Positions 1,932 to 48,299 of a stretch of 64,000 nucleotides of DNA are shown in pieces. The stretch lies in assembly GCA_002803225.1 (NCBI GenBank), contig NXFV01000148.1, positions 1-64,000 of the forward strand, read 5' to 3'. Below the pieces are notes generated by a model, which had not been told where the DNA came from, searched no databases, and saw only the letters and a list, made by a program, of their open reading frames with translations. The position numbers were made by a program, and so were the translations under genes. Within the stretch, counting starts at the first letter, position 1. Every line of letters begins with the position of its first letter. Source of the DNA: Gamarada debralockiae (lineage: Eukaryota > Ascomycota > Leotiomycetes > Helotiales > Hyphodiscaceae).

Positions 1932-2906
1932 ATGATGATGGTTTCCATCTACGACTCCGTAAGGCTCAAAGACTCTTCAAAAGAGATTCGTCTCGTGACC
2001 ATCCAGCCGGGGCACGAAACGGCTGATATTGATTGCACCCTCGAAGTCGTCACATTTGAGACTACTACTGCGCACTCAGCTCTACGGTACCTTGCATTAT
2101 CATATAGATGGGGAGATCCGAGCATCAGGGTTTCAATCAAACTTCAAGGACAGCCTTTTCCGGTGACGACTAATCTCGAAGCCGCTCTTCGGCAGCTGCG
2201 GCATGTACAAGCTAGGAAGAGGATGTGGATTGATGCGCTTTGCATCAATCAAGCCAGCGAAAGGGAACGCAGCGCACAAGTCAATTTCATGGGATCGATT
2301 TATCGCAAAGCGTCACGAGTCAATGTTTGGCTGGGACCAGAAGCTCCTGGAAGTGACAGTGCCATGGCATTCCTTTCGGACCTGAACACCCATATTCGCA
2401 AAGACAACTCCATGAGCGATATTCGTAAAGTACCTAGTCTATTCTCGGGAATTTGGAAACAGATCCCAGCAGGACAATGGATTTTTCAGACTTTGTCAAG
2501 AGACACCAAACTCACGGAAAATTTAAAAGAGCTATTCCGCCGGGAATACTGGGAGAGGATATGGGTCATGCAAGAGATATCTCTAGCGACATCTATTTCT
2601 CTTCAATGCGGTCGCACAAAAATCACAGAATTCGAACTTGCAAGAGCGATCGATTTACTTCATCGTGTGCAGGTTGATTTGCCACGAGAGTGTGCGCGCA
2701 TACCGCATTCGCCGTTTGGAATGGCCAATTCTAGGATATGGATCAATTCGGGACTACCAACCCCTCTTTACCGCTTCTTGATCTTTGGACAAACGATGTT
2801 CGCTCATGATACACGGGATAGGATATTTGCTGTTCTTGGTCTTGTCGCTGATCCGGAGGCACCACAGTATAAGGTCGATTACTCGAAATCTGCGGTGGTA
2901 GTTTAA
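1932..2906 (+). pseudogene. HET-domain protein, 5' part (split by insertion)
   Basis: N-terminal part of a heterokaryon-incompatibility (HET) protein, a family that mediates non-self recognition and cell death after hyphal fusion. It carries LALSYRWG, then MWIDALCINQ near residue 100, YRKASRVNVWLG, the ERIWVMQEI block and DTRDRIFAVLGL. I start at ATG 1932. The frame ends at TAA 2904-2906, and the last A of that stop is the first base after the direct repeat GTGGTAGTTTA (2895-2905). The same repeat occurs at 11351-11361, where the missing part of the protein continues in the correct frame. This is therefore an interrupted gene rather than a short protein. Confidence 0.85.
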
Positions 2907-3006
2907 CTCTAATCCTTCAATTTTCCTCCTACATTCGGTTAGTAGGCATGGCCGCTTCTACTCAGGCGCTAATTACCCTCGGCTCACCCTCGGCTCAGCC
3001 AGCTCA

Positions 3007-3212
3007 CCTGAGCTGTCTGAGCAACCTGAGCAGTCCCTGAGCAGTCCCTGAGCACTCCCTGAGCACTCCCTGAGCAGTCCCTGAGCAACCTGAGCACTCC
3101 CTGAGTAGTCCCTGAGTAGTCCCTGAGTAGTCCCTGAGCAGTCCCTGAGCACTCCCTGAGCAACCTGAGCAGTCCCTGACCAGCCCCTGAGCAGTCCCTG
3201 AGTAACCTGAGT
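3007..3212. repeat. tandem array of CCTGAGCA-type units (left)
   Basis: About 18 imperfect 9-12 bp units built on CCTGAGCA, with spacers AGTCC, ACTCC or none and several CA-to-TA variants (GAGTAGTC). It is GC-rich against the surroundings. The matching array at 11030-11280 is the reverse complement type, so the two form a long, loose inverted pair just inside the ends of the insertion. Confidence 0.85.
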
Positions 3213-3485
3213 AGTATTGTCACGTGACGCAGGGAAATCCCTGTGTCAGGTGACCACGCATCGGAGCATCTGGGCGGGACGGGATGTAGCTCGGGTGGGC
3301 AGATCACGTGCGCACTTGTATTTAAGTCAAGGTCTCCTTACAAACCTCCTTCTCTCCTTAGCTTAGTATTCTCGTCTTCGCAGGCAGCTAGCTAGAGAAT
3401 AGAGGTTGATCCCTTGACTCTCGTCCGCTGTCGTGACAATTTCTATCCTTATTTTTGAACCTTGAATATTTCTGTCGGGAGGTTG

Positions 3486-3510
3486 ATCACATGATCAGAG
3501 ATCATGTGAT
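3486..3510. promoter_or_regulatory. perfect 11 bp palindrome upstream of HET gene
   Basis: ATCACATGATC, a 3 nt spacer (AGA), then its exact reverse complement. It sits about 255 bp upstream of the ATG at 3765 and contains two CACATG/CATGTG half-sites. This could bind a dimeric regulator; function is inferred only. Confidence 0.4.
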
Positions 3511-3764
3511 GTACTAGTCCTAATTAGGTTGGACTATAACGAGCGGAAACCTTGAGCGGAGCTCAGGCTTCCACTTTGAACCATCAACACCAACGCAACC
3601 AGCATATCACGATTCTACACGTGCCGTGTTACGCGTTACTGATGGACCGACAGTTTCCCTCTTAAAATCATTAGCGCAGCAGCTAAAAGCACAATTAATG
3701 ATATTTAGCCTGATTCTATACGTTAACAAGGATCGAACCAGTTAGGCGAGACAACAGGCCAGCC

Positions 3765-5891
3765 ATGCTCTGTCAAAAGTGCGCATTTATTACTAATCTC
3801 CTTGAAGATGTCAGATCGACTCAGAGTATAGAACACCACTTAAGCTTCGATAACGTCATAATCTCTGCTAAAGAGGGCTGTGAGATGTGCAAAGCAATTG
3901 TAGAAGAGGTAAATCTACAAGGAGACGTTATGTGTGGCGATGCACCAATATATTTCCAGCTTTGCCATGGAAGGGTCATAAGGCCTACTAATGATCCACA
4001 AACTGTGAGCGGGATACGGTTTTGGCAAAGGGGGCCCGCCGGGAACAGGTTTGGCGTTATTGTGGCCCCTGGGAAAGGTCGTCATAGCATTGATTTCGAA
4101 TTCTTTGTAAGAAATGGTATGTCTTCGCCTCCGGGGAGGATTAAGCACTGACTGGTAACTATAGGGTGTTCTGAGAAACTATCACAAGCGTTTGGGGGAC
4201 GCGAGGTCAACCTCAGCCCGGAATCGGACGCTTGTTTTGATCTTTGCACGCAATGGATCGCAGAGTGCCTTACCAGCCACGCAGGGTCATGCCTGCGACG
4301 TCCAGCAACATTTCCAACGAGACTCCTGGATGTTAGTTCCGATAGACTTTCAGGACGGCACCTACGGCTCCGAGCGATGGATTCGGATAGCAAGGGGATT
4401 TGGGTAACTTTGAGTCATTGTTGGGGAACTAATAGCCGGTTCAAAACGACAATGGACAACATTCAAGACAAAATGGACAATATCAAATTTGTCGATCTCC
4501 CTCCCACATTTCGGGATGCCGTTATAGTCACAAGACGACTTGGGTTTCGATATCTTTGGATCGACTCACTGTGTATTATTCAAGACGCACACGAAGACTG
4601 GCTACGGGAATCTTCTCGCATGCATCAATACTATAAGAATTCTGCATTAACAATAGCTGTGGCTTGCAGTGCCGGTGACAACGAGGGTTTTCTACACAGG
4701 ACACGACCGCCGGTTGAAGAACCTCTGGCACTCTTTCCTTTCTATACCCCAGCTCTATCGAACTCAACTGCCGGGGCCTCTGAGAAAAATCTAGAGTGTG
4801 TGTTCATCAGGGCGATTAGTAGGAGCTATCCGACAGAGCCGCTCTATGAGCGTGCATGGACACTTCAAGAGAGCCTCTTATCTCCTCGTACTATCAGTTA
4901 TACTACTCGAGAACTAAAATGGCAATGCCAACATCAGATATCGTTCGAGTCCAATCTCGATCCTTCGGGTATAGATGCGCACAAATTCTTGATGCCCTCC
5001 AGGGAAAGCGATATACCATACAATGAGGACCCATCGAGCCATTTTACAAAATGGAACACTGCCATTAGCGGTTACGTTAGGCGTAGACTCACTCTCGCCT
5101 CAGACAAGCTGCCGGCTATCTCTGGTGTGGCTAGAGAGGTACACTTGCGAACGAAAGCAACGTATAGAGCCGGTATCTGGCTAGAGGACATTTATCGTGC
5201 GCTTTCTTGGTCCTTTGCTGGGGTTGGACAACAGCCAGACGAGTATCGAGCTCCGTCATGGAGCTGGGCAGCCCTTGATATGGCGACTGAGCCCTCAGGA
5301 CCATATGAATGGAACCTAGAGCATGACTTTTTCACGCTGTTCGTTTGGAACCTTGGGTGGACTGATACTCGTGATCAGTTACAAGCACAGGTCTTAGACT
5401 GCCAGGTTTCTCTAGGAGGGGATGATCTGTATGGTCAAGTAACCGGTGGGACTCTGATACTAAGGTCGTTCTGGACGATGTGGAAACGAGTTGCAGAGGA
5501 AGGCGAAAGTAGTATATGGAATATTGCCCCTGTCATAAATCGTTATGACCGGCCATTTGTGGGCGCAATAGAGCCAGGGGAAAAGTTCGAGGAAGGCTTA
5601 ATTTGCACTTTCGATATGTTCATTGAGCTGGACGAGATGGATGACTACTTCGCGGATCTCAGTCTAGTGCAACTAGTTACCCGCCCAGTGATAAACCTAG
5701 CTGTTTGTCTCGGCTTATTACCTCGTCGTAACGAAGACGATGATTTCGGCCGACAATATGTCATGCTTCTTAAACCGGCCGGTGTTGAGGGAGAGTTCCG
5801 TCGGGTCGGGATAGGGGAAATCCCCTACACTTATCGAGAAGCCAAATTTGAGGATGATGGGTGGGAGATAACAACAGTGGCAATTATTTAA
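3765..5891 (+). CDS. HET-domain protein (intact, inside the insertion)
   Basis: Two exons, 3765-4116 and 4165-5891, with a 48 bp intron (GTATGT to TATAG), give 692 residues. The N-terminus MLCQKCAFITNLLEDV with a later CEMC is the cysteine-bearing start common in this HET group. After the splice come CLRRPATFPTRLLDV, then the HET core IWVTLSHCWGTN (about residue 195) and YLWIDSLCIIQD. Further on are YERAWTLQESLLSPRTI and the C-terminal RAPSWSWAALD. HET proteins are cytoplasmic regulators or executors of vegetative incompatibility. The frame is intact, unlike the decayed material around it. It lies wholly inside the insertion that disrupts another, different HET gene. The downstream 600 bp is non-coding. 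Confidence 0.9.
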
Positions 5892-6523
5892 TAGATGTGC
5901 GTCAGAATTACGGCTAGGGGTTAGTGTGAGATGGAGAATGCATTAATAACATCAGCGGCCCCCGTTGTATTGATTGCTACGTCCAATATAAAGCTGCATA
6001 AGTTAATTTCTCGAAGCCTAACACTCCCAGATAGACAAGCGAGGGCAACAGAGTTAGATAAGGCGAGATAAATAAGGAATAAAGCAAATATCTTCATTTT
6101 GGCACGTGAGAGAACTAGGATACAACAACAAAGGCGTTATTGAACTGAGGAATAACAATAACATTTATACTCGACTTGGGTTCCACGTGAAAATTTTGCA
6201 TAGTGAGATAATGTATGCAATAGGGCTGCTTGAATAGGCTTCAGTTACTTAGTGGTTGCCTAGGGAATCATTAGACTAACGTGATTTGGAAGCCCGTTTT
6301 GGTCCTTAATAGGTGCCAAGTGGCCACTGCTTATAGCGACACCAATTTCAATATCTGATTCAGAGAGCTAAAACAGGAGCTTATTTGCTTTATTAGATAA
6401 TAGCTCAGGCACAAAAGGCATTTATAAATGAAAGTCTCTATTAAGCCTGCTAGAGTGTTTCTTGAGCTCGTAACTATGAATTTTCTTTTGGCGATGTTAT
6501 GATAATGCTCTAAGAGCTTGTTA
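5892..6523. other. non-coding, AT-rich spacer
   Basis: No coding pattern seen. Sequence becomes increasingly AT-rich toward the pogo-type end at 6524. Confidence 0.5.
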
Positions 6524-6598
6524 CAGTAGAACCCCGATATAAGAATGTGCTCGGGACCAGCTAAAAATAAGAATATAACGGGGTTATTCTTATAACGG

Positions 6599-8633
6599 CA
6601 AATGACTCGCATAACACCTAAAATATTTTTTTTGACTCGCATAACACCCAAATTAGTTTTTGTGACCCGTATAATACCCTGAATATCTATACTGCTCTTT
6701 TACTACTCTAGCCCTCCCTAGCCCTCTACATATTAATTTTGAAGCTATAGGATATATAACTTTACTATCAATATTATACTTACTATTAGTGATTAGTTTC
6801 TAACTATAGAAGACGCCCGTGAGGCTATCTATTATTATATGCTTGATAAAGGAGAATCTTATAAGGTCTATCAATTAGACTGTTCCCGCCATATTATTAT
6901 CTGTAAAGATCCTACTTGCAAATTCAGAATCCGAGCTTCTTTACTTAAAAAAAAGAGCACTATTATTACTATTCTTATTCCTTATTCTTGTAGCCCTATC
7001 AATCACTACAAGAATAAGCAATCCTCTGCTCTCTAGTTCTTAAAAAGCTATTATAGGGCTTCTCTTATTAATAATAGAACTTTGATACTAAGCTAAATTT
7101 AGTCTGATGAGCGTTTACGGTTCAGTAATACTATCAGCTATCGGCAAGCTTATCGTCTCAAACAAGTATTGTTAGATGAAATCGAAGGCAAAGAAGCTGA
7201 TTACTTTGTATAATTCCTAGTATATATATAACGATTAGAAGATTCAGATCCTTAGAACTAGTGTCTCCTTGTTATAGACGATAATAATAGCTTTCAAGCT
7301 ACTGCTTTTACTCCAGTAGTTATAAAAAGAGCCTGCCGGTGGCTTAGGAAGTTTGTAGCTTTGGATGCTTACTACACAAGATTAAAGTTTCGAATGATAC
7401 TTATAATAGCTATAGGAATTGATACTAATAATAATATCTTACTATTATCATGGGCACTTGTTCCTACAGAGAGCGAGGAGTAGTAGATATAGTATTATAA
7501 GTTCTTAAAAGATTGCTTTTAATAGATAGATAGCGAGGCCTTTATCTTTATATCTGATAGAGATAAGGGCCTTACTATAGTGCTTCAGACTATATTCCCG
7601 AAGGCTGCAGCAGCTTATTATTGCCAGCATATTGCCGACAATGTATAATAGCGATATAGGGTCAAATACCGACCCTTGTTCTGGCGATATACCTGGGCAA
7701 AGATAAAGTAACTATTTAAGGAGGCTTTAGAAGTATTAAAGGAAGAAAACAAAGCTACTATAGCGTATATAGATGATATCCCTCATAAGTCTTGGACCCG
7801 GTATACCTTTCTATATCTATAGTTTAGCTATAATACATCAAATATTATAGAATCTTTAAACTTAGTTTAGAATCTACTTTAGTCTCTTCCTCTACTAAAG
7901 ATAGTTGATACTATCTGGTCTACTACTATAAAGATAATATATAACAGATACTATCGTCTATAACAAAGCATATAACTTGCAGATATTCCTCTTGCTAAGT
8001 TTAAGGACCGTCTTAAATCTAGCCACTAGTATCGTGTCTTTGAGTCAGGAAATAGGGTATATCAGGTATAAGTTCCTGATTCTAGTTCCAAGTTTACTGT
8101 GAATCTTCAGGAAGGGACTTGTACTTATATGAACTTCTATGAGTACTTAGGGCCTTATACTTATGTAATTACAGCTTGCCGATTTAAGGCAGAGGATCCA
8201 TATACTTATTTTCACTAGGCATATACTATTAGGTCTTACTAGAAGACTTATTATACTCCTATAAAGCTAATTTCTATTAAAGACTTATCTTCAGACTCTA
8301 ATATACTTCCTCCTAAGCTTATTAAGCTTCGTAGACGACCAAAGACTAAGAGAATTAGGAAAGGAGCTTGGAATCGTTAGCCTAGACAGTGTACTAACTA
8401 TCAGCAGATAGGCTATAATACAAGGAGTTATATAGGCGTCCCTATGGCAAAAAATGGACGAGGAGAGAGGGCACGTGATTGGCAGGCAATAGAGGTAGAT
8501 GAAGATAGCAGTAGTAATATGATTGTGGTAGATATACGGGGTTAAATATTCAGGGTGTTATACTGGTCACAAAAACTAATTTGGGTGTTATGCAAGTCAA
8601 AAAAAATATTTTAGGTGTTATGCGAGTCATTTG
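6599..8633 (+). mobile_element. Mutator-like (MULE) transposon, RIP-degraded
   Basis: Terminal inverted repeats of about 95 bp start CAAATGACTCGCATAACACC at 6599 and end with the reverse complement at 8633. Within each TIR a unit of about 30 bp (TGACTCGCATAACACC plus a T-rich run) recurs three times, as in transposase-binding subterminal repeats. Internally about 6805-7035 reads EDAREAIYYYMLDKGESYKVYQLDCSRHIIICKDPTCKFRIRAS in successive blocks, the MuDR N-terminal DNA-binding pattern. Later pieces (FVALDACYTR, VKYRPLFWRYTWAK, DIPHKSWTRYTF) follow MULE order. About 20 in-frame stops, many TAG or TAA where Q or W is expected, indicate CpA-to-TpA (RIP) mutation. It is dead. Confidence 0.85.
6797..8520 (+). 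pseudogene. MULE transposase relic
   Basis: Coding remnant inside the MULE, readable almost in one frame once stops are ignored. The N-terminal zinc-like block has C-x4-C spacing (CKDPTC). The middle has ESEE, AFIFISDRDKGL (an acidic residue of the DDE core is plausible) and AAAYYCQHIADNV, where C-x2-H resembles the MULE signature. The C-terminal part is basic (KLRRRPKTKRIRKGAW). A family-length protein would be about 550-600 residues, which fits the space. No functional product is possible. Confidence 0.75.
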
Positions 8634-8760
8634 CCGTTCTTATAATTTTGGTGGGCTACACTAAAAATACCACTTTGGGACCATGATATTTGCTAAGAAT
8701 ATCGGGGTTTTTGTTAGGATATTCTTATAGAGGGGATTCTTATATCGGGGTTTTACTGTA

Positions 8761-9461
8761 TAGTAAGTGGGTTGGTATCTTTAATTGTATTGAAAGATTA
8801 ATTTCCTGTTTTACCTGAGTAGTAGTAATACTTGATCCTAATTTGATTCTATGTTGTTTCACAAGCTGTTAGGTTAAAGAATTTAGACTCTAGTGTTAAA
8901 CAAACCTGAAGCCACTTATTGGATTAATCTCAGATAAACTTAAATCTTGAATCCCATCAAAAACTAGATATTAACTAATCAACACTAACGCTATTCTCTC
9001 ACCTATCACAATCTCTACTATAGCGGCCCTCGTGAAATTAGTTAATGCGAAGATTCGGGCGCAAACCTATACTTAACTATATCTGCTCAACACGTACGTT
9101 CCCCTCCCAATTTCCCTAGGACTCCCCTACTTGTCCTCGCGTACGCAAGCAGGACTTTACTTCTAGCGGCTGGCAGCAAACAAGGGCGATTGATGCGGAC
9201 TGATACTAATAAGATACAGATTTCTAAGGGCCGGTATCGAATTTCGGTGTCTTGATTGCGGTGGTAATAGATACGCAGAAGAGCCTTGAGTTGTAAGTAC
9301 ACGTCTCTTCTATTGACTCAGAGTTCCCCTCTTAACTATTAAAGCCTTTCGTTAGCACGAGCCATTCTCCTATTCCCGGGAAGGCATCCTCTATCTATTT
9401 ATACTTGTATTTATATTAGGAATAGGGAATAGAGAGCTAATTAGAATGTCCACTTCACAGA
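8761..9461. other. non-coding stretch in the insertion
   Basis: AT-rich and unfeatured. A short open stretch on the minus strand (9087-9302) has no recognisable motif, and I do not call it a gene. Confidence 0.4.
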
Positions 9462-9735
9462 ATCTCCGGCAAGATAACAGGTGCCTTAGTTATCTACTCC
9501 GTAACCTTTATACGCTACGCGCTCGCCATCTAGCCAAAGAACTACCTCCTCTTATTCTACTACTTCGTCAACGAAGGCGCACAGCTCACGTAAGGATACC
9601 GGTGCTTGTAGTATTATAAAATAGGCGGCAAGGAGGAGACGTTGAAGCAGCAGGCGGAGAGCGGGGTTAAGAATGCAGTTGGGAAGGTTGAGAGAGGTTA
9701 GCAAGGCTGTTGAGAAAGCGAAGGATGTGGTTAGT
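9462..9735 (+). pseudogene. decayed mitochondrial pyruvate carrier (MPC1-type) fragment
   Basis: One frame reads ISGKITGALVIYSVTFIRYALAI, a stop, PKNYLLLFYYFVNEGAQLT, a stop, GYRCL, a stop and YYKIGGKEETLKQQAE. This follows the MPC1/UPF0041 order: ISG-MT-AL, YS-FMRY-LAV-P-NYLL, N--AQL-QGYR and GG-E. MPC1 with MPC2 forms the pyruvate importer of the inner mitochondrial membrane. Several stops sit where Q is expected (LT-Q-GYR), consistent with RIP. The N-terminal third is missing. It was probably captured by the surrounding element, because it lies between that element's ends. Confidence 0.72.
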
Positions 9736-9903
9736 AAATAAAGGATGGATCGCGGTTAAAATTAATAGTTGATTAGGGTAGTATAGCGACGGAGGGTAGA
9801 GTAGAGATTTACACGGTTTGGGGAGATTTGCTTGCATGCAGGGATAAATTACTTGCCTGTGTATAGTAGAGGGGAGATGCTCGCATGGCTCTTCACTAAG
9901 GTC

Positions 9904-10194
9904 CACAATACAATGGAGGCCAAGAAAGTATTACTGTTGTCATGGGGATTGGGTTCTGAAAGGTTTTTTAAGGCCGTTAGTATTTTCCCTACCGCCTATT
10001 ACGCGGATCTCGTCTGCAAGAGGGCCAGGTGCTATTTAAGCAAGTTATTTGGTGCCATACCTGGAACCACACCAGCGGGCAGCGTGGTGTCAGGAGCAGG
10101 TGGCGGAGGCGAACAAGTGGCAGATCTGAATGATGTGCAAATACACAAAAATGTGCGTGATACGATGTTCCTACATCTGATGCGGGAAAGGTGA
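9904..10194 (+). CDS. unrecognised short ORF
   Basis: An open frame of about 95-120 codons with no family I recognise. It includes a glycine-rich stretch (GAIPGTTPAGSVVSGAGGGG) followed by a charged tail ending HLMRER. It lies between the MPC1 relic and the right CCTGAGC array and may be a fragment of another captured gene. It could equally be chance. Confidence 0.2.
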   Translation, partial: HNTMEAKKVLLLSWGLGSERFFKAVSIFPTAYYADLVCKRARCYLSKLFGAIPGTTPAGSVVSGAGGGGEQVADLNDVQIHKNVRDTMFLHLMRER

Positions 10195-10341
10195 ATGCTT
10201 GATTGTATTCTTGAACTTACTAACCTATGCGAAGCACAAAAGAGAAAGAGTTAATTAATCATAGTACTGTAATTCTTCCTAGGTAGCAAATAATCCCCCT
10301 AGACCAACTATAACAAGCTTCCCTCCTCTAATGGGTTTCCC

Positions 10342-10830
10342 TCAAAGTCCTAATTTGATAGCCATATCCTCAATCATCTCCTCCAACTCTTTCTCCTTCT
10401 CATCCAGTCCCCCCCTCTTCCTCTTGAACTCGTTCCCTCTCACAATCCAGTACATAACTCCCTCCAAAAAAGCACCCACCAAAATATCCACACGCCTATT
10501 CTCCAGCGACTCTCTCTCCTCCTCTAGCTTCCGCCTCAACTACTTACTCTGCTCCTGAAACCCCACAACCTGCCATAAGAACTCACTGTCGCATAACTAA
10601 AAATCATATCACCCAATCTCAACCCCATCCAAAACGGGTTCCCCAATACTTATCCACACGAACTCCTACCTCCCCAGCCAGCATGCTCGTAATCTCGAAG
10701 ACAGCCGCCCTAGCACTAAAACACTTCGCTATGCCTGCAAAATACAAAACCCTTATCAAGCACCTCCTTCCCCTTAACCCGCTATCTCATCACCTCCCGC
10801 AACTCTTTTGTGTGCTCAAAATCATTACCG
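10342..10830 (-). pseudogene. unidentified decayed coding remnant
   Basis: Minus-strand pieces look coding in amino-acid make-up but are broken by stops. About 10342-10539 gives a charged, coiled-coil-like end (RRVDILVGAFLEGVMYWIV, then RGGLDEKEKELEEMIEDMA). The order of a hydrophobic helix then a charged coiled coil loosely recalls the OPA3 C-terminus, but the match is too weak to assign. Confidence 0.25.
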
Positions 10831-11029
10831 ATATATTTTTCTAAACCGCGATCAAGCAGTGTCTGTAAGGATAGTAGCTTTCTCAGGGGCATTAGGACTA
10901 GAGCGCTGGGACTGCCGCGGGGGGCACTGTAAGGGAGCAGAAATAGATTCCCGGGCAAAACTCGGCAAGGAAACTGTAGCCGGGGCACACAAGAGGCCAA
11001 AATGGGATCCACATTATGGTGCGCAGGCT

Positions 11030-11280
11030 GACTCAGGGCGTGCTCAGGATGCTCAGGCCATGGCTCAGGATGGCTTAGGCTGTGCTCAGGCATACTCAGG
11101 CTCTGCTCAGGCATGCTCAGGCATGCTCAGGCTCTGCTCAGGTTCTGCTCAGGCTCTACTCAGGCTCTGCTCAGGCATGCTCAGGCTCTGATCAGGTACT
11201 TCACCCTGGGCTCAGGAATACTCACCCTGGGCTCAGGAATGCTCACCCTCAGCTCAGGTATGCTCACCCTCAGCTCGGGT
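11030..11280. repeat. tandem array of GCTCAGG-type units (right)
   Basis: About 22 units of GCTCAGG with spacers CTCT or CATG, then longer 20 bp units around CTCACCCTGGGCTCAGG. This is the inverted counterpart of the array at 3007-3212 and lies just inside the right end of the 8.4 kb insertion. GCTCACCCTC is also found near 2985 on the same strand, so the symmetry is imperfect. Confidence 0.85.
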
Positions 11281-11361
11281 TAAAGCAGCAGCAGCTCACG
11301 TCCAGAGACTAAAACGGAAGCGGCGGAGATGAGATTAGAGTTAAACTTTAGTGGTAGTTTA

Positions 11362-12220
11362 TGCCGAAGTTGCGAAGTTGATTATGGACCGAAGAGATAA
11401 GGATTATTTGAGTCTTGTATTAAGTCGACCGCGAGGTCTGAAGAGGCCTGAATTACATCTTCCATCTTGTGAGTTTCTCGAGCTACGAGGCATCGTATGC
11501 TAAGTTATTTCAGGGGTACCAGACTGGTGTACATCATATCCAACTCCACTCCTCTCAGATGCACACAATAAGGAGGTCTACCGGACGGCCGGGACAACTA
11601 TTCCAGAGTACACAATTGATAAGAGTTTGAGTGTATTAACGATCAAAGGTTTTGTAGTAGATACCATAAAAACTCTAAGTGGCGGCCTTCCCAACAAAGC
11701 ACTTCCTCCTCTCAACGGCTCCGTGATCCCCGCACAGTGGTGGAGCTTCTGCGAAAAAATTATGAGCGAATCATCAACAGATATTCGCATTCCCATCCAA
11801 GATCGGTCCATCGCACTCTCACGTACTGTGATTGCAGACCGCAATTTCGACGAGATCACCAAAACAGGAAGATCTACAGAAGCCTTTTATTCAGACTTGT
11901 CTAGTGTCAAATACAACGCACGGTACGGCACACCTGAAGCTCATCGAAGCCAAAATTGCCGAAGAACCGTTTTTCGCACAGCCTTTGGACGGCAACTCAT
12001 AGTTTCCAACACAGGCTATATTGCACTAGGTCCAGCAGATGCGAGGGGAGGAGATATCATATGTGTTCTATTTGGAGTTCGAGTGCCACTTGTGCTGAGG
12101 AAAGTAGATGATCACTGTGTGATTATTGGGGATTGTTATGTTGATGGAATTATGGATGGGGAGCTTGTTGAAGGGATGGAAAGTGGAAAGTACAAAGTGG
12201 AGACGTTAAACGTTCAATGA
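11362..12220 (+). pseudogene. HET-domain protein, 3' part of the split gene
   Basis: Continuation of the HET gene begun at 1932. Reading on from the right-hand direct repeat gives YAEVAKLIMDRRDKDYLSL. A 45 bp intron follows (11468-11512, GTGAGT to TTTCAG), and splicing creates the family hallmark LPSWVPDW. The rest matches HET C-termini: EVYRTAGTTIPEY, VLTIKGFVVDTI, LIVSNTGYIALGPADARGGD and CVLFGVRVPLVLR, then DCYVDGIMDGELVEG. Lengths of 974, 106 and 708 nt sum to 596 codons without a stop. The intact frame argues that the interruption is recent. Translation from an internal ATG could give a C-terminal fragment, but nothing suggests it is functional. Confidence 0.82.
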
Positions 12221-15703: not shown

Positions 15704-18297
15704 TCACAACAACTTTACTTTCTTCGCTTCTTTCAAGTCACTGGAGCTAAAGCCTACGCTTACCCCAATATCACCCTTCGGAATCCTCCAGTTCTGCGCC
15801 ACGACATCCCAAAAACTGACATCTCTTCTCACCAACTGGAACTCCACCTCCTTAATTTCTCCCGGATCCAGAAGCACTTTCTCAAACCCGCGCAAGACCT
15901 TAACCGGCGTACCAGTCGGCGTGGAGTTCTGCGGCAGCGAAACATAAAGCTGGACAACAGCCGCCCCCGCCACATTTCCAGTGTTGGAGACAGCTGTCGA
16001 AGCATTGAGAAGGGGCGTGAAGAGGTCCACATTTCCACCAGGTGCTATTGGAGATGAGGGTCTAGGGAGGGGTGAAAGGTTGTTTGAGCTGGGAAGGTGA
16101 GTGATGGTGAGTGGCGAAGAGAGAGAGAATGTTGTGTAGCTAAGCCCGTACCCAAATTCGTACAAAGGTGTGATATTCAACGCATCGAAATGGCGGTAAT
16201 CAATCATCAGTCCCTCGGTAAAATTCGATTGCCAGGCATTTGTGTCCGTCACATCTGTGAGGTTCACGATCGGGATATCGTAGTCTGCTTCATCGGCGGG
16301 GATGGTGTATGGCAGCTTCCCGGATGGATTTACGTCACCCCATAAGATGTCCACAATTGCGTTCCCGCTTTCTTCGCCTGGGTAATGGGCAGCGAGGATA
16401 GCCGTCACATTTGGGTTCGTAGCCCAAGGCATGGTATTTATACCTGCCGAGTGCGTGATGACGATGGTATTTGGACAGCGTGCTGCGATATTGTTGACTA
16501 CTAGTGCAGAATCCCAGTCTGCTTCAAAGGACAAACGATCATACCCTTCTTGCGAGAAGGTCTTGAGGAACACCAAACAAACTTCCGGGGTCGGGTAGAT
16601 GCTTCTGAAGTCATGTGCAGCGATGATTGTGTTCGAGGTGAGGTATTGCACTCGTGCTCCACTGAGCGCGGCGCGAGCTTTGATAGCCTCGAGAGGAGAA
16701 ATGAGGGCCGTGTGCCGTCCTGAGCCGGAACCGCCCCCGACGTCGAGTGTACCGAACTCGAAGCCTGTTTGGGCTTCAGGGTCGGGCCATGTGAGGCCAT
16801 CAGTATGATCTGGGGCGTCGTTTCCAAAGACTCCGATGTCCATAGGAGCCTTGAGGGGAAGTATGGAGTTGGTATTTTTGAGAAGCACAGTACCGGCTGC
16901 GCCGAGGGCGCGGATAAAGGCAGAGTGATTGCCGCGAACGTTACGAGCGGGTACTTCGTTCGGAAGTGAAATGCCGTAGGTGGTGGCGAGGACGAAATAG
17001 GCTGATGGATCAACGGTCGGGTAGTCTTTGTCTTGTCCCAAGAGAAAGTACGGGGTCATGATTCGTCGAATCATATCGTCTAGTCTCTCCATCGAGACGC
17101 TGCCGTTGGTTACTGCTTCTGTAACATTTCTTCCAAAATAACTTTCTCCAGTTGCAATATTGTTAGCATCTAAAGATCCAGGCATGTCCATATCCAGTCC
17201 CGCGTTGATGGATTTGACCCCGGAATGTGTGGCAAAGAAGTCACTCATGACATAGCCCTCAAACCCGAGCTCATTTTTCAGAATCCCGGTCAACAGCTCG
17301 GAGTTCTCACAAGAATATGTTTCATTGACTCGATTGTACGCGCACATCACAGATGTGGTGCCAGCTTTGACTGCGTCGGCAAATGGCCAGAGGTAAAGCT
17401 CGTGTAAAGTTCGGTCATCGATGTTCGAGGAGATTGCCTCAATGTTGGCCCCATCAGGGAGAAGGGTGTTGCTTCTTTGAGTCTCTTGCTCGTTTCCGAT
17501 GAAGTGCTTCGAACATGACTGTACGCCCGCGTCTTGAATACCGTGGATGGTGAAGTTCATTGCGATTCCGGTGAGGTATGGGTCAGGGGAGAAACTTTCC
17601 CAGTTGCGACCTCCAAGGGGATGGCGACCAAGTGGCCCGGCAACAGGTCTTCCAAATAATTAATCACCATTACAACTCTCAAGACACTTAAAAATATTCT
17701 TTGAACGTACCCCAAGCCCACATGTGTCCCTTTCGCCTTGAATTCTGCTCCCAAGAGCAACCCGCGCCGGTACATGAGACCTCGATCCCAGCTAGCTGCT
17801 GCGGTCATACCAACCGGGAAGACACTGACTAGATCGTATCTGTTGACTGCAGTAGGGCCGTCTGAAATGCAAAGTCCAGGAAAGTCTAGCCTCTCGATTG
17901 GTGCGATGTTGCCGACACATGCTCCTGCAAGAGAACTGCCGGTGACCATGCTGGCTTTTTCCGTGAGGTTAAGCTGAGCTACAAACACTGAGGCTTTTTG
18001 AATTGCGACTTCCCAGTCTCCAGGTCCAGCTTCATTTCAATAGAAAATTTTAGTTAGCAAATTTCGAATAATTGAAATGCTCGTCGAAACGTCCTAGTTG
18101 GCCGAGAAAAGGAATTGCTCACTTGGAAGGGACGCATTGCTACTACGCTCGTTCCTTTGAGCAAAGATTACCCGAAAGAGATTTACAAAAAAAACTGCCC
18201 TGAACAAAGAACCAAAAGCTGGAAATGGGTACATGGTATAAGCTGTAGCCAAGCTTTGTGATGAGAGGACGGAAGTGGAATTCAAAAACATCTTCAT
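15704..18297 (-). CDS. secreted GH3 beta-glucosidase
   Basis: Three exons on the minus strand: 18297-18123, 18029-17711 and 17648-15704, with introns of 93 bp (branch GCTAAC) and 62 bp. The product is about 812 residues, normal for GH3. The order fits the family: TGPGDWEVAIQKAS, AQLNLTEKASMVTG, FPGLCISDGP, CSKHFIGNEQETQR, the nucleophile region YVMSDFFATHSG (Asp), AGLDMDMPG, and a C-terminal fibronectin-III-like domain. It hydrolyses cellobiose and other beta-glucosides outside the cell. A hydrophobic stretch near LFRAVFFVNLFRVIFA is probably the signal peptide; a later ATG at 18234 would put it at the N-terminus, so the start is uncertain. Confidence 0.9.
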
Positions 18298-29811: not shown

Positions 29812-31028
29812 TCATGGCTTGTCCTTCCACACATTGCTGAGGAAATCCTCGATGCTCGTGAGCTTGACATGAGGTAAAAGCTTGTTCCACTCGTCAGAGA
29901 CATCGTATGCACCTCGCTCCGCTCCAAGAAGCGTTCCAATGACAACCGCTTTCGCAAATGTCTCATGCTGCTCTTTTGGGACACTAGGGTGATTGAATGC
30001 TGGGACCCAAGACGTATTGAGATTCCCTGCCTCGAGGTCTTCAACCTTTACTCTGTCGATGGTGAAAGGTTTGCCTGCCAAGAAGCGGTTTAGCGATCGA
30101 TTAAGGAAATATTTTTCAGGCCAGATTCAAAATATGAACTTACCGCGAATCTCTCCTCCGAGCCCAAGGAGTTTGGCTGTAGTGATTTGTCCACCTCTGA
30201 TGCCTCCTACCTCAGGCCATTCTCCTTCATACTCAACCGCAGCAGCGACAACCTTGGCTAGATCTTGGACTGTCGTGAGAGTCAACTGAGCTTCTCCCTC
30301 ACCGACCACAATTGCTCGCCGATGTTCGAAGTCAATTTGAAGAGGAGCAATATTAAGATGTTTGGTGGATGGGTACGGGTAGCTGAAGTAATTCGTGAAG
30401 AGCCCTGGTTGGAACAGACAATATTCCAGTACCTGGTTGAAAGTCAGAATTTCATGAAAGATTTGTTGAGTAGAAGTATAACCTTTCTTTCAGAGTTCAC
30501 TTGCTGAAGATATCGATGGGTCACATCCTTTCCGACGTACCATGGTATTCCACTGTCGCTGCGACTGTCCTCGTTAGCTTGGTGCGCAGACACTGTCAGG
30601 AAACCTACGTTGACCACTCACTAGGAGCAAATCTCCTCACTCCCGCCTCAATACTTGCGTCAATGAGGGTTTTCTCTGCAGAGGTGCTTGCATCGGATGC
30701 ATCGAAGACGAAGGAGAGAACTGTATGGATGCCGAGCAACGCCTTAACTAGGTTGACTTTATCTTTGTAGTCAACTTTTATGGAATAGACGCCTTGCTCA
30801 GATAAGCCCGAGATATCCTTCGAAGGAAATTTAGTAATTGTTACCTTGCAGTGTCAATGACTGGGACTCACCTTCCGGGTGAGGACAGTGATGTCGTGCT
30901 TCTTTTCGGCCACAAGCACGTCAATGATTTCTCTGGCGACATCTAATCAACCGTCAATCTCCACATCTGCTAGAAGTAGCAATGCGATTCTTACTTCCTG
31001 CGCCTCCGGCAAGAGCAATTTTCACCAT
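29812..31028 (-). CDS. NmrA-like / isoflavone-reductase-like NAD(P)-binding protein
   Basis: Six exons on the minus strand: 31028-30995, 30942-30872, 30817-30609, 30564-30483, 30432-30144 and 30074-29812. They sum to 948 nt with every junction in frame (315 residues). MVKIALAGGAGNVAREIIDV is the dinucleotide-binding start (GGAGNVA). Then VLTRK, HTVLSFVFDASDAST, RRFAPSEWST, KVLEYCLFQPGLFTNY, IDFEHRRAIVV, LTLTTVQDLAKVVAAAVE, GEWPEVGGIRG and YDVSDEWNKLLPHVK follow the family in order. Members are cytosolic reductases or redox-sensing regulators; the substrate is unknown. Introns are 44-69 bp. The 30433-30482 intron has a weak GTTATA donor. It is a neighbour of the dead transporter but itself appears intact. 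Confidence 0.85.
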
Positions 31029-33207
31029 ACTGCAATAGCTAGATCTTTAGCGCTGTCTATGATTTCGAAATTTCTTTTCCGCTTATCAAGTATAAGAACG
31101 CTTTTGAATACAGAAAGTTTTATGTTTTTATTGAATAACATCATAAAAGTGTATTAGTAATTGGATTATAAATATCGCGAGTCTCACATAAGAATCGGAG
31201 GGATAGTTGACCGTCAACCCGACCCTAGAGCCTGAAGATGTCCGCGAGGTCAAGCACCAAGAGTTACGCTAATGATGGACGAACTGACCCACTAATTTTA
31301 TGGCTGCGCCAATTAGTGGGCTTCAGCAATACGGTCGTTTTTCATCGATACGGTTTGATTTTTCTGACGCGATAACTCCATTATAGATTGTCTCAACATA
31401 CGATTATTTTTTTTAATAGTGTGAGTACTATATAAAAATAGAATAATAAAGACGTAATATAAGAAATTATTAGGCCTATAGGACAAAAGGGAAGTCCTAA
31501 TATTTTAATTAAACCTCATTATCAACTCTCAAAAATTAATCACCTTACACAAAACCTCAATAACTTTTCAACTAGTAAACTAAATTGAATATCGAAAGCT
31601 GTGATTGAATCTTTATACTTTATTATATTAATATAGTGCAAGTTGTTATATAGAAATATTATTGTGATTTAATATATAATAAACAAGTGAATTTTACATA
31701 TAGTTATAGTAGCATGTGACTATAGTTCAAGTTGGGCGCACTGAATTAAACTCCAAAAATCAAGTTTATTATTAACATTAAATAAAATCTAGTAAGTTAA
31801 AGCATATTTCAATTAAGAAGCATTTAGACTATTATTCTTTATTATCTAAATTATAATCTAAGGTTGCATTGTGCTCTTTTTTATATTCTGAATAGTTTTA
31901 CAAATAAATCATATATAGAAACCCGTTATTATTTTTATAGATTGATTTGATTGATATTCTTACACTGATCTATAGGAGTAGGATTTTATATTTACGTTAA
32001 AAAATATTATGGAGTATAAAATAATATCTGGTTTTAAAACTTTAACTTTACACAAATATTGTAAGGTTGTCTAAGGATTTAAATGTGAATTGTGTTTTTC
32101 TCACTTTAAAATTCGCGAATAATTTTGCTAAGTTCAATATTTAAAAAAATTTCTTACGGACCAACTTGCTAAATCAACTTTTCGGGAGTATACTATCAAC
32201 CTCGCTTATTAATAGTAGTTTCTATCGCGACGCAAGGAGCGTCAATATCCAAAATCAATTCCTATATTAAGTACTCTCATGGATCGCCCTATACGCTGGC
32301 CTTTGCGGCCTCCGCCTCCTACAGCGGTTTACCCTAATATATCTACTGCTTTTACTGCTCTCCAAAGCCCCGCAAAAGCCCACAGATATGCCTTTTTCAG
32401 GAAAGATTCCTAGCCTCCGAAATCTGAACCTACCAAGATAATATATGCTTGTAATAGGAAGGAAAGCCTCAAACTAGGGCTAAAGACCCTACAGTTCATA
32501 AAATAAACCACAAACGTGTCTTGTATTCACATACTAATAACTACTACAGCGCAAGGTTGATAGGTGTATTCTGGAAAGTGGTGGCTGGCAAATTGATTTA
32601 GCTGGTCCCATTTCTTATAGAGATAATAGAGTATTTTTGAAAGAAAACTTTAAAACGACTTACTTATATTATTTATAATTGTGAGATTTAGAGTACTTGG
32701 ATTGAAGTTGGTTTTGTTATTAATTTATAAAGTGGGTGAATTCTACACCACGCACTAACGGCCTCTGCTTGGCAAGAGCCATAAGAGAGCACAACACCGT
32801 CTGCTGGGCATCTGCCTTTGGATAGTGCAGAACTCTAAGCAAGGGGGGAGAGACCTAACCAATACCAAACATTCAAACCCTGTTTAATGAGACCTTGCAA
32901 TTCTTCGAGAATTCCCGGCTTTCGTAGAGTTTCACTTCGGCCCGTGTCTTGTCGGTTAGTCTGAAAATAATCGCCGCATTGGATACATGCCACTCGGCAC
33001 GCCGTACTCTAATTCCACGTCGCACGAGCGCAACGGCCAACTCCAAATATTTCAACGTTAAGCAAGTCTGCTACCAGAAACTTTATTCGGTTCTCTCGCG
33101 TGACGCTCATGCGCTAAGTAGCAGCAAACGGATATTTGGCACAGAAAAGATTCTGTCTCTCAGCCCGGTACGCTGATCCGGCAATTTACAAGTGAAGCTT
33201 GCCGTGC
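31029..33207. other. gene-free, mostly AT-rich
   Basis: From about 31380 to 32280, and in patches to 32760, the sequence is extremely AT-rich with TpA-rich, CpA-poor composition and no ORF of note. The rest (32760-33207) is unfeatured. Confidence 0.6.
31380..32280. repeat. AT-rich, RIP-like block
   Basis: Around 900 bp of nearly pure A/T with scattered CG remnants, no long ORF, and sharp borders against normal-GC DNA. This is typical of a transposon remnant mutated by RIP. The original element can no longer be recognised. Confidence 0.6.
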
Positions 33208-44554: not shown

Positions 44555-46790
44555 TTATGGGCTTTCTTCGCCAATAACATCCAGCCTCACTCGGACCTCC
44601 CTCACCAAAGCCTTCGCTTCTTCTACCTCAACACCATCCTGACATAGCTCCGTCGCTAATTGCATCGCTCGTGTATAATCCCCAGTCCTCATTGCATGTT
44701 TGGCAAGCCACATTCGTGCTTTCGAAGTCGCAGCCGTCACTCCGGTCCCAGTATTATCACCCCCTCCTCCACCAATCGCCACCCCAGGTCTTGATTCATC
44801 ATCCGACGATTGCGAATCAGCGTGTATGTTGATGACTGAAGCCTCAAGATTATCGCCGGCTCCCTCCTCCTGCGCAACACACATCTCCATATATGCCTTC
44901 GCTTCTCCTTCGTCTTCCAGTCGCTCATACATCCCCGCAATCTGCAGCAGAATCTCGGGATCCATGGTCCCACCTCTTTCCCGACCTCCGCTCCCAAAGG
45001 AACTTTCCACACCCGCATCGTAGTAGCTGTCAGCCAACAATGCCCTCTTTAGAGCTTTGATGCCTTCTAGATCTCTGCCCATCTTCTGAAGACATGATCC
45101 GACTGCCATCCACATCTTTCCATCCCATGGCCTAAGCCCGGCTGCTCGTTTGTAATACCAAAGAGAATATGCGTGCATTTCCAGCACTTCGTAGGTTTGT
45201 CCCAGACCATACCATGCCCGGTAGTCTCTTCTATTGACATCGACGGCCCTGCGATATGATTCGATGGCCGCATGAGTATTCTTCAATTCCACGTATTCGT
45301 GACCCATGAGTGTCCATGCGCTTAAACAAGATCGATCGAGGGTTAGGGCTCGTCGGAAATATTGCACAGCTTTTTCGTGTTGAGATAGTAAGGAATAGTA
45401 ATTTCCTATGACCACGCAAGATTCTGGTCGGAATTTATCGACCGAAGAGCAAAGATGGGCCAGGAATGAGAGCTTCGGGCGTAAATTCATGACGTATAGG
45501 ATGTTGGAATAGTGGTCGAGGGAGTCGAGTCTATGCGGGTGTAGAGCGAGGAGGTGGCTGAAGTGGTTGTCAGCCGTGACAAAATCTTTCGTGTGGTAGG
45601 CGAAGAGAGCGAGACATGTGAGGAGGAAAGGACTCGTTGGGAATATAGAGAGTAGCTGGTCCAGGGAGTTGGAGAGGTTTGGTGACGATTGGTAGAGTTC
45701 GAGGGAGGTGTGGAGATGGAAGATGAATGTGAGGATGTTTTGGGGGAGGTGCGGAGATATTCGGTTGAGCTACATAGCTTTTAGCCCAATATCCAACCTG
45801 ACGGATTCTTTAATCCAGTTTCCTTGGGACCTAGATGGGACACTTACATCTTCGACTTGAGCAATCAAAGAGGTCATCTCAAGCCAGCACCCCCAGTTCA
45901 TGGGATACAGATGGACACTTCTTATGAGCCACTTCATAGCTTCTTCCTCGCTCTTGTCTTTCGCTAGGACCATGCCGTAACTATGTCCATTAGCCATGAT
46001 TCTTCAATCCATTGGAACACATACAGATATTCAAGCCATCCCTGGCTCCCTACAACTTCCCCAGTTGTAGTCATTCGTTCATGAAACCAGCTCTCCAGGA
46101 ATCGGCTTATGACTACCAATTGCTTGTTCACGACATTCCCTCCATCATGTGGTCCCATAACCATCTCACTATCCTCATCCTTCTTCTTCTCTCCAGACAT
46201 GAACTTCGCATACAAGGCCAAAAACAGGCTCTTCTGGCTCAACTTTGGCATACTTGGCGGGATGATGGAGTTTGTTCGACTAGTCGTGGCTTTCGCTTTG
46301 CCCTTTCCTTTGGGCGACGTCGCGTTCTGGCTGCCTTTCGATGACACCGAGAGGATCCCAGATAGGACTGTATCTGGCAGAAATACGGCTGCGCACCGAT
46401 CGTATTCTCGGCAGTCGAACAGGGACTTCGCGAACAAGTATCGATTTATTTCCTTGGCTTCTAGTTGTGCTTCTTCGGGGTCCAGGTTTCCCGTGACAAC
46501 AATGGGTGGTAGGCCCTCCAAAGGTACTTCGGTCATCTGCGAGTCTTCTGGTTCCAATATATCTTCGTTTGTAGGAATCGATGTGAGGAGTTCTGCCGCC
46601 CTGCCCCATTGTCAGCCTTGGCCACAAGAGTCTTCAGAAAGTGACTGTACCATTTCGCAGACTGGTATAAACATCGTTCCGAGCACTTGACCACAGCTTC
46701 TTGTAGTGTAGCTCGCAGCTGCGAGGTATCATGTTCGTTGAGCGGCATTTCCAAAACTTCTAGCCGGCTAAGAGCCAGGAACAAGTTCAT
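44555..46790 (-). CDS. cdc23: anaphase-promoting complex subunit 8 (Cdc23/Cut23), TPR protein
   Basis: N-terminal MPLNEHDTSQLRATLQEAVV and CSERCLYQSAKW, then after a short intron AAELLTSIPTNEDI, is the conserved APC8 start. TPR repeats follow: YGMVLAKDKSEEEAMKWL, NYYSLLSQHEKAVQYFRRAL, TLMGHEYVELKNTHAAIESY, YGLGQTYEVLEMHAYSLWYY, MWMAVGSCLQKMGRDLEGI. The scaffold subunit Cdc23 belongs to the APC/C ubiquitin ligase, which drives anaphase and mitotic exit in the nucleus. Introns lie near 46595-46645, 45980-46010 and 45780-45850. ATG 46748 (MPLNEH) is as likely a start as 46790. It is head to head with ERG20, 411 bp apart. Confidence 0.9.
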
Positions 46791-47201: not shown

Positions 47202-48299
47202 ATGGCGAAAACTACCACGCTCAAGGAGTTCGAATCCGTCTTCCCAAAGCTCGTCGAGGACATTCTCGATCACGCAAAGCAGTACAATCTGCCAGAAGAG
47301 TTCGTCCAGTGGTACAAAGCTGTAGGCTACCCTTTTTGAAGCTTTGCAGGCTTTCCTATGCTGATTCCATGATAGTCCCTCTATGCTAACGCGATCGGAG
47401 GAAAATGCAATCGCGGCATGTCCGTCCCAGACTCCGTCTCCATGATCCTCGAAGCCCCACTATCCGAACAGCAATACTTCGAAGCCGCAACACTGGGATG
47501 GATGACCGAGCTCCTACAAGCCTTCTTCTTGGTATCAGACGATATCATGGACAGCAGCATCACTCGTCGCGGTGCGCCGTGCTGGTACCGCCAACCTCAC
47601 GTCGGAATGGTTGCCATCAACGATGCCTTCATGCTCGAAGCTGCCATCTACGGCCTCCTCAAGAAATACTTCCGCAAGCACCCCTCATACATCGATATCG
47701 TCGAGCTGTTCCACGAAGTCACCTTTCAGACCGAACTCGGCCAATTGTGCGACCTGCTCACTGCGCCAGAGGACAAGGTTGATCTGGATAACTTCTCTAT
47801 GGCCAAGTACCAGTTCATTGTCATCTACAAGACCGCATACTACTCCTTCTACCTCCCAGTTGCCCTTGCCCTCTACCACCAAAACATCGCGACACCAAAG
47901 AACCTCAAGCAAGCCGAACAAATCCTCATCCCTCTCGGCGAATACTTCCAGATCCAGGACGATTACCTCGACAATTTCGGCCTCCCAGAACACATTGGCA
48001 AGATCGGTACGGATATTCTGGACAACAAGTGCTCTTGGCTCGTCAACCAGGCTCTGGCAATTGCCACTCCTGAGCAAAGGAAAGTCTTAGAGGAGAACTA
48101 CGGACAAAAGGACAAGACCAAGGAGGCTGCGGTGAAGAAGCTCTACGATGAGTTGAAGTTGGAGCAGATTTACAAGGATTACGAGGAGAAGCGCGTTGGT
48201 GAGATCAGAAAGATGATTGCGGAGATTGATGAATCGGAGGGCTTGAAGAAGACTGTCTTTGAGAGCTTCTTGGCCAAGATCTACAAACGCAGCAAGTAG
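47202..48299 (+). CDS. ERG20: farnesyl diphosphate synthase
   Basis: Two exons, 47202-47321 and 47376-48299, with a 54 bp intron, give 347 residues, the normal length. [20 protein letters not shown] and [12 protein letters not shown] join to [17 protein letters not shown]. The first aspartate-rich motif is [10 protein letters not shown] (with RRGAPCWYR after it) and the second is [11 protein letters not shown]; both bind Mg2+ and diphosphate. The C-terminus KIYKRSK matches the usual fungal YKR-K end. The enzyme condenses DMAPP/IPP to GPP and FPP in the cytosol for ergosterol, dolichol, ubiquinone and prenylation. The sequence is complete with no lesions. Confidence 0.97.

Follow-up and report, generated by a model that had tools for sequence, protein, structure and literature searches.

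A mobile element with conserved ends and exchangeable cargo interrupts a HET gene in the fungus Gamarada debralockiae

Background

This paper concerns an 8,456-bp insert that splits a HET gene in the fungus Gamarada debralockiae. It lies in the window, the whole stretch of 64,000 nucleotides analysed here, which is contig C1108 of a 54.3-Mb assembly of 1,112 contigs; this one assembly was used, without reads. The closest described systems are the Starships of the Pezizomycotina, the Cryptons and the Pack-MULE or Pack-TIR elements (MULE, Mutator-like element; TIR, terminal inverted repeat). Pack-MULEs and Pack-TIRs are non-autonomous and have conserved ends around exchangeable host-gene cargo. 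Gene capture in this style is known for DDE elements of the MULE and hAT types, and MULEs and Pack-MULEs make a target duplication of about 9 bp of variable sequence. Allorecognition genes are known as Starship cargo. We know of no host-gene cargo in Cryptons.

A passage of PMC12153272 describes Starships as elements of about 20-700 kb with a captain gene at the 5' end, and for the high-confidence Starships of A. fumigatus it counts direct repeats of 2-12 bp in 19 of 20 and TIRs in 18 of 20. Starships can lose the captain according to a part of PMC12134995, and derelict Starships also appear in an excerpt of PMC11623301. For Cryptons, a section of PMC3212892 gives terminal direct repeats of 4-6 bp as the likely recombination substrate, an absence of TIRs, and non-autonomous derivatives in animals. 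The same section puts the usual tyrosine recombinase site at 11-13-bp inverted repeats around 6-8 bp.

The insert and its relatives resemble Starships in their short direct repeats (here (T)GGTA), TIRs, a target with a sequence preference, variable host-gene cargo and a fungal host. Their inverted ends qualify as TIRs in the Starship sense, since they are exact over 15 bp in the window copy and imperfect over 14 bp in the family consensus. They differ from Starships in being only about 3-15 kb long, in having no captain in the 14 elements read, in their subterminal arrays, and in existing as dozens of copies with differing interiors. Short terminal direct repeats and non-autonomous derivatives are shared with Cryptons (in fungi CryptonF, with GCR1_C), but Cryptons have no TIRs while these elements have inverted arms, and no Crypton gene was established inside an element. 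Conserved ends and exchangeable cargo are shared with Pack-MULEs and Pack-TIRs, but the core here is fixed at 4-5 bp and is common to tandem copies. A literature search at the level of titles and abstract openings found no such family described; most subscription papers and preprints were outside its scope, so this is not proof that the family is unpublished. We argue, as the likely reading, that the insert is a copy of a small non-autonomous cargo family, probably moved by a tyrosine recombinase acting in trans.

The interrupted HET gene

Read directly, the HET gene runs on the forward strand from 1932 to 12220 and is split by a net insert at 2906-11361. The left half (1932-2903) contains a HET domain (PF06985, 110.8 bits) and its frame is closed by TAA at 2904-2906, the last base of which is the first base of the net insert. 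The right half (11362-12220, forward strand) has a 45-bp intron at 11468-11512, with GT...AG borders and placed by frame continuity. Joining 1932-2905 to 11362-12220 and removing this intron gives 596 codons including the stop. The sequence-only reading had described these in-frame halves, the intron and the stop made by the first insert base, and all of them are present. The HET gene is now terminated early at a premature TAA by the insertion.

The joined gene aligns without a gap at the junction to five homologues (P0001-P0005), which are 55-59% identical to the left open reading frame (ORF) over 90-92% of its length. Four of the five predicted frames (P0001, P0002, P0004 and P0005) stop at the would-be intron start, which is the end of exon 1, while P0003 continues. 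These homologues do not keep the two halves as separate genes, an arrangement that would have told against an insertion. One can imagine that the halves are two neighbouring HET-like genes, or that the contig is a chimera, and a single assembly with no reads leaves some room for this. However, the frame continues exactly from one half to the other, the homologues are continuous across the junction, and both ends of the insert are common to dozens of other loci. We consider this scenario hardly credible. The proposal that a mobile element sits in an otherwise open HET gene is upheld by the in-frame halves, the unbroken homologues and the multicopy ends.

The ends of the insert have two kinds of repeat, and both were already named from the sequence and can be read there. 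The 11-bp direct repeat GTGGTAGTTTA stands at 2895-2905 and again at 11351-11361. The 15-bp sequence AGTTTAACTCTAATC (2900-2914, forward strand) is exactly inverted as GATTAGAGTTAAACT (11333-11347, reverse strand). We call these the left and right arms; the family consensus is GTTNAACTCTAATC after the left core and GATTAGAGTCTGAC for the right arm. The cores themselves are TGGTA at 2896-2900 and at 11352-11356 (both forward strand), and the right arm is separated from its core by the spacer TTAG at 11348-11351. The termini that are conserved across the family extend over 2896-3000 and 11242-11356 (forward strand). Subterminal arrays follow on either side: units of about 11 bp with CCTGAGC or CCTGAGT at 3003-3216 (forward strand), and GCTCAGG units, the inverse of the left array, at 11020-11287 (reverse strand).

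A family with shared ends and different interiors

Looking for other copies had been set beforehand as a check, and it succeeded in that dozens of sites in the genome share both types of end. A left-end pattern found 38 sites at up to 1 mismatch in the 54.3 Mb and a right-end pattern found 40 at up to 2 mismatches, with none in either reversed control. These ends are far beyond chance. Searches with the ends gave at least 41 left-end and at least 51 right-end places. Both counts include the window's own ends and have some copies split into pieces; they are lower bounds, from the best 40 of 88 candidates on the left and the best 40 of 106 on the right. When up to 2 mismatches were allowed, the left-end scan found 101 sites vs 27 in its reversed control, and the extra sites are a mix of chance matches, reversed right ends and other repeats.

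There are 17 elements of about 3-15 kb with both ends. Fourteen were read through and have lengths of 2,974-15,399 bp, 126,415 bp in all. In 11 of them the two ends could be fixed to the exact base. The others are C226, whose right end is in part degenerate, and C857 and C134, where this applies to one end or to both. The remaining three, C637, C648 and C669, were read at their junctions, and their end positions give sizes of about 4.3, 5.8 and 10.3 kb. Eleven elements were first found by BLAST, with ends bounded at up to 4 and 6 mismatches. At its left end an element reads TGGTA-GTTNAACTCTAATC, and at its right end GATTAGAGTCTGACTTTNN-TGGTA. When 12 elements were compared all against all by BLAST, they proved alike in their terminal 130-560 bp, and the interiors have only scattered matches of 53-538 bp, the longest of which (64% identity) is between HET genes. 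Across 11 elements the CCTGAGY units are mainly in the first 700 bp (1-18 units) and the RCTCAGG units in the last 700 bp (3-17 units). The window copy is the richest, with 18 and 17.

These sizes bear on another scenario, that the family is the debris of large Starships whose captain-bearing members decayed, shrank and are now immobile. Starships can lose the captain and carry accessory genes, and this genome does have DUF3435 genes. Against this, 17 elements keep both ends at about 3-15 kb, and for 11 of the 14 that were read through the position of both ends is known to the base. The window copy is also at odds with the debris scenario, since this copy contains a decayed transposable element (TpA/ApT 1.33) yet sits between open, unmarked HET halves. 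We regard debris as improbable.

The junctions

The left core is TGGTA in 28 of 39 cases, CGGTA in 5, AGGTA in 4 and something else in 2. The right core is TGGTA in 30 of 40, CGGTA in 4, TGGCA in 4 and something else in 2. Because the core was part of the search patterns, there is some selection in these counts; 16 of 55 supposed left rows were right ends read backwards and were dropped before counting. Past the core, the left side is element sequence (the GTT there belongs to the element) and the right side is host sequence. After the right core the first host base is G in 24 of 36 cases and the next is T in 23 of 36. Four tandem rows had been dropped from the 40 right ends for this count, and dropping C500 later as a fifth gives 23 of 35 and 22 of 35. 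Because GT is preferred after the right core, targets resemble the element's own left end.

The sequence-only reading took the direct repeat for a target duplication of 9-11 bp. That part does not hold for the family. In 12 elements the run common to both junctions, measured from the first core base, is 10 bp in the window copy (11 with the preceding base), 8 in two others, 5 in four, 3 in one and 0 in four. In the four with no common run it is the first core base that differs. What is conserved is only a core of 4-5 bp, (T)GGTA, and a family-wide duplication of 9-11 bp is ruled out, as the common run around the fixed GGTA can be anything from 0 to 11 bp long. In the window copy 11 bp match because the HET target happens to continue GTTTA after the core, as the element's own left end does.

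Tandem copies have a single core between them. In C592, C1007 and C226 an element is directly followed by a second left end with one core in common. C500 is a fourth case, with a degenerate second left end (E 1.7e-19), and C654 is possibly a degenerate case in the opposite order. The two cores of an element were compared in 14 elements, two of them tandem copies (the 11 with base-exact ends plus C637, C648 and C669). There are 7 core differences between paired junctions and 5 of these are at the first base. Differences at the first base are consistent with a crossover to the right of it, since one junction would then keep the base of the target and the other that of the element. Once the two ends of an element are joined, a short asymmetric core is flanked by inverted arms of 14 bp that match imperfectly, and the distance from arm to core differs between the sides.

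We argue for a tyrosine recombinase because of the fixed non-palindromic core, the inverted arms, their unequal distances from the core, the tandems that share a core, and the targets that look like the left end. The other route to consider is a DDE cut-and-paste transposon of the MULE or hAT type, in Pack-TIR style, with TIRs, a duplication of 8-11 bp and captured host genes. The 15-bp inverted ends, the subterminal arrays and the 11-bp direct repeat of the window copy would all suit such an element. It does not fit the common run of variable length around a fixed, non-palindromic GGTA, the unequal arm distances, or tandem copies with one core between them. A scan of 60 cargo ORFs found no DDE domain. 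The window copy's decayed MULE-like passenger, which is outside that scan, has its own ends and its own 9-bp repeat. We consider a DDE transposon unlikely, though somewhat less so than Starship debris.

Uninterrupted paralogous sites

Finding a site without the insert was the other check set beforehand. The joined flanks of 12 elements were searched in their own genome, and uninterrupted paralogous sites turned up for three other insertions, C1032, C980 and C648. For C1032 nine contigs match across the junction, from C533 at 97% down to 70% (the others are C1062, C391, C45, C798, C786, C618, C179 and C802). For C980 three contigs do so at 93-88% (C564, C532 and C888). For C648 they are C1093 (91%), C14 (89%), C671 (85%) and C606 (77%), plus weaker matches. 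The sites that were read (8 for C1032, 3 for C980 and 4 for C648) each have one core-like stretch vs two at the filled site. In C980 all three paralogues have CGGTA, and the filled site has CCGTA at its left junction and TGGTA at its right. A DDE transposon should leave two copies of the target, but judged from these three paralogues the two C980 cores are not both target-like.

A tyrosine recombinase from elsewhere, either a Starship captain or a Crypton-type enzyme, would bind the inverted arms, which would form an imperfect palindrome around the core once the two ends are joined, perhaps in a circular intermediate. It would excise the element and integrate it at a genomic (T)GGTA, with a preference for sites where GT comes next, and each junction would end up with one core. 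For the window copy the target would be the GTG GTA GTT TAT stretch of the HET gene.

The search for a recombinase

Several observations weigh against the recombinase reading, and it is worth considering them together. The first is that none of the 14 elements read yielded a recombinase. The captain domain DUF3435 (PF11917) has 23 matches in the genome, with none on the contigs that have listed ends and none among the 60 cargo ORFs, although unread copies or a decayed gene could escape this search. Two weak look-alikes of the ends near DUF3435 matches (C302 and C297) are at chance level. The C297 site had been a candidate left end near a DUF3435 gene, but when read it has no left end and is put down to chance. 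For the other tyrosine recombinase domains, Phage_integrase has no match in the genome, GCR1_C has 21 and NDC10_II has 19. Of the latter two only those on C417 could be within an element; those on C589, C200 and C573 are outside an element or about 37 kb from an end.

On C417 (loci L106, L133 and L135) there is a decayed Crypton riddled with stops, with GCR1_C and NDC10_II. It lies about 3.5-5 kb inward of a right end that is genuine (71.9 bits), and the stretch C417:6900-10900 yielded no left end. This Crypton may be what is left of the enzyme source, or else a passenger or a neighbour. Near captain or Crypton genes, end profiles gave no match at E 0.05 (loci L037-L059 and L106), and a fuzzy scan gave a single match, in L057, at chance level.

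The structure of the sites is the other difficulty. The spacer between the arms is about 10 bp, which is longer than the 6-8 bp of a usual site. Exact TGGTA is present in only 3 of 8 C1032 paralogues and in 0 of 4 C648 paralogues. The paralogous sites are only 70-97% alike (88-93% for C980), which weakens any argument from single bases of the core. In a weak paralogue of C287, on C118 (70%), about 30 bp separate the two flanks, and these contain neither an element nor a clear core. For 8 of the 12 elements the search gave no paralogous empty site, and the HET copy is one of these.

Since no enzyme gene was found in the elements, we infer that the enzyme would be supplied in trans. A DUF3435 captain gene with largely open frames is present at C586:60623-61953, and is a candidate trans-acting recombinase. 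Further candidates are the DUF3435 gene of C952 and the Cryptons of C642 and C589.

Cargo

Among 110 listed ORFs of at least 130 codons, a chosen 60 were scanned against Pfam, plus seven window ORFs and seven others, and since unscanned ORFs remain a missing domain is not proof of absence. By Pfam scans and tblastn with HET proteins, 7 of the 14 elements have HET domains (C592, C565, C679, C980, C287, C429 and the window's own C1108). NACHT or NPHP3_N domains are in C429 and C857, and DUF6594 is in C635, C226 and C134. Other cargo includes P450 (C287), MFS, ELO and ADH_N (C1007), NmrA with a transcription factor (C1032) and ankyrin repeats (C1048). Nested retroelement domains are present in C592 and C134; the 60 scanned ORFs gave Pol_BBD, Retrotrans_gag and aspartyl proteases.

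If all 770 first-look HET candidates in the genome were real, 1.79 genes would be expected in 126 kb, and the Poisson probability of seven or more is 0.0025. This calculation ignores the clustering of HET genes, so enrichment of HET genes in the cargo is suggestive only. The genome search behind it, in which the best 150 of the 770 candidates were scored, would imply a very large HET repertoire.

HET genes do not appear to be a preferred target. Apart from a tandem neighbour, only 1 of the 14 elements, the window copy, has HET-like flanks; a HET match in the flank of C592 falls within a second, tandem element. Landing in a HET gene may have been a chance event.

Two elements contain leftover ends. 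There is a right end inside the C679 element at 3553-3647 (locus L021) and a left end inside the C287 element at 11165-11224 (loci L028 and L029). These fit composite capture, and they suggest that DNA lying between two adjacent copies can be picked up if one of the ends is passed over. A copy could acquire new cargo if the recombinase paired its left end with the right end of a neighbour.

The interior of the window copy

The cargo of the window copy is a HET gene at 3765-5891 (forward strand) of 692 codons plus a stop, with a proposed 48-bp intron at 4117-4164. It is open throughout and has a HET domain. It is no close relative of the gene that the element interrupts, with at most 46% identity among the matches listed.

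Next to it is an outer passenger transposon at 6522-8760 (no strand assigned), with inverted TACAGTARAACCCCGATATAAGAAT ends, also written TACAGTARAACCCC, and TA at both edges. Nested in this is an inner decayed, AT-rich transposon at 6596-8636 (forward strand) with 9-bp direct repeats TTCTTATAA at 6587-6595 and 8637-8645. By its protein motif the inner transposon is putatively MULE-like. Its sequence resembles the product of repeat-induced point mutation, and this TpA/ApT signature is absent from the two HET halves (0.49 and 0.72). With such AT-rich decay in the inner transposon and none in the HET halves, the insertion into the HET gene is probably younger than the decay of the passenger.

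Surroundings

Elsewhere in the window a beta-glucosidase frame at 15704-17659 (reverse strand) has as its top-ranked match a sequence of Hyaloscypha variabilis, at 86% identity. By this one gene the host is most likely a member of the Helotiales near Hyaloscypha. An APC8-like TPR protein is at 44555-45769 and a polyprenyl synthetase at 47376-48299. No RNA family reaches its gathering threshold in the window. The stretch 31000-32600 is AT-rich (GC about 0.30-0.33, TpA/ApT 1.07) and is perhaps another decayed transposable element.

The sequence GGTAGTCAGAATATAATC, with one variant GGTAGTTAGAATATAATC, recurs across several contigs (L118-L123) and is part of another repeat family. Its repeated sites were considered as a possible sister family of the elements described here, and this was ruled out by sequence that is conserved between copies on both sides.

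Conclusions

It has long been asked how fungi gain and lose incompatibility genes, and here one movement shows both: an element with an open HET gene has disabled another HET gene. Our broadest proposal is a tentative one. A distinct captain-less lineage might ferry and reshuffle mainly allorecognition-type genes (HET, NACHT and DUF6594), be mobilised in trans, and at times knock out a resident HET gene. If true, one mobile family would both add and remove loci for self/non-self recognition, with whatever effect this may have on incompatibility. If small captain-less elements do move in trans, host-gene cargo can spread independently of the giant elements, which are looked for by way of the captain gene, and part of the gene traffic may have gone unnoticed. 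With the (T)GGTA core, the defined ends and the uninterrupted paralogous sites, other isolates can be used to test the idea directly.

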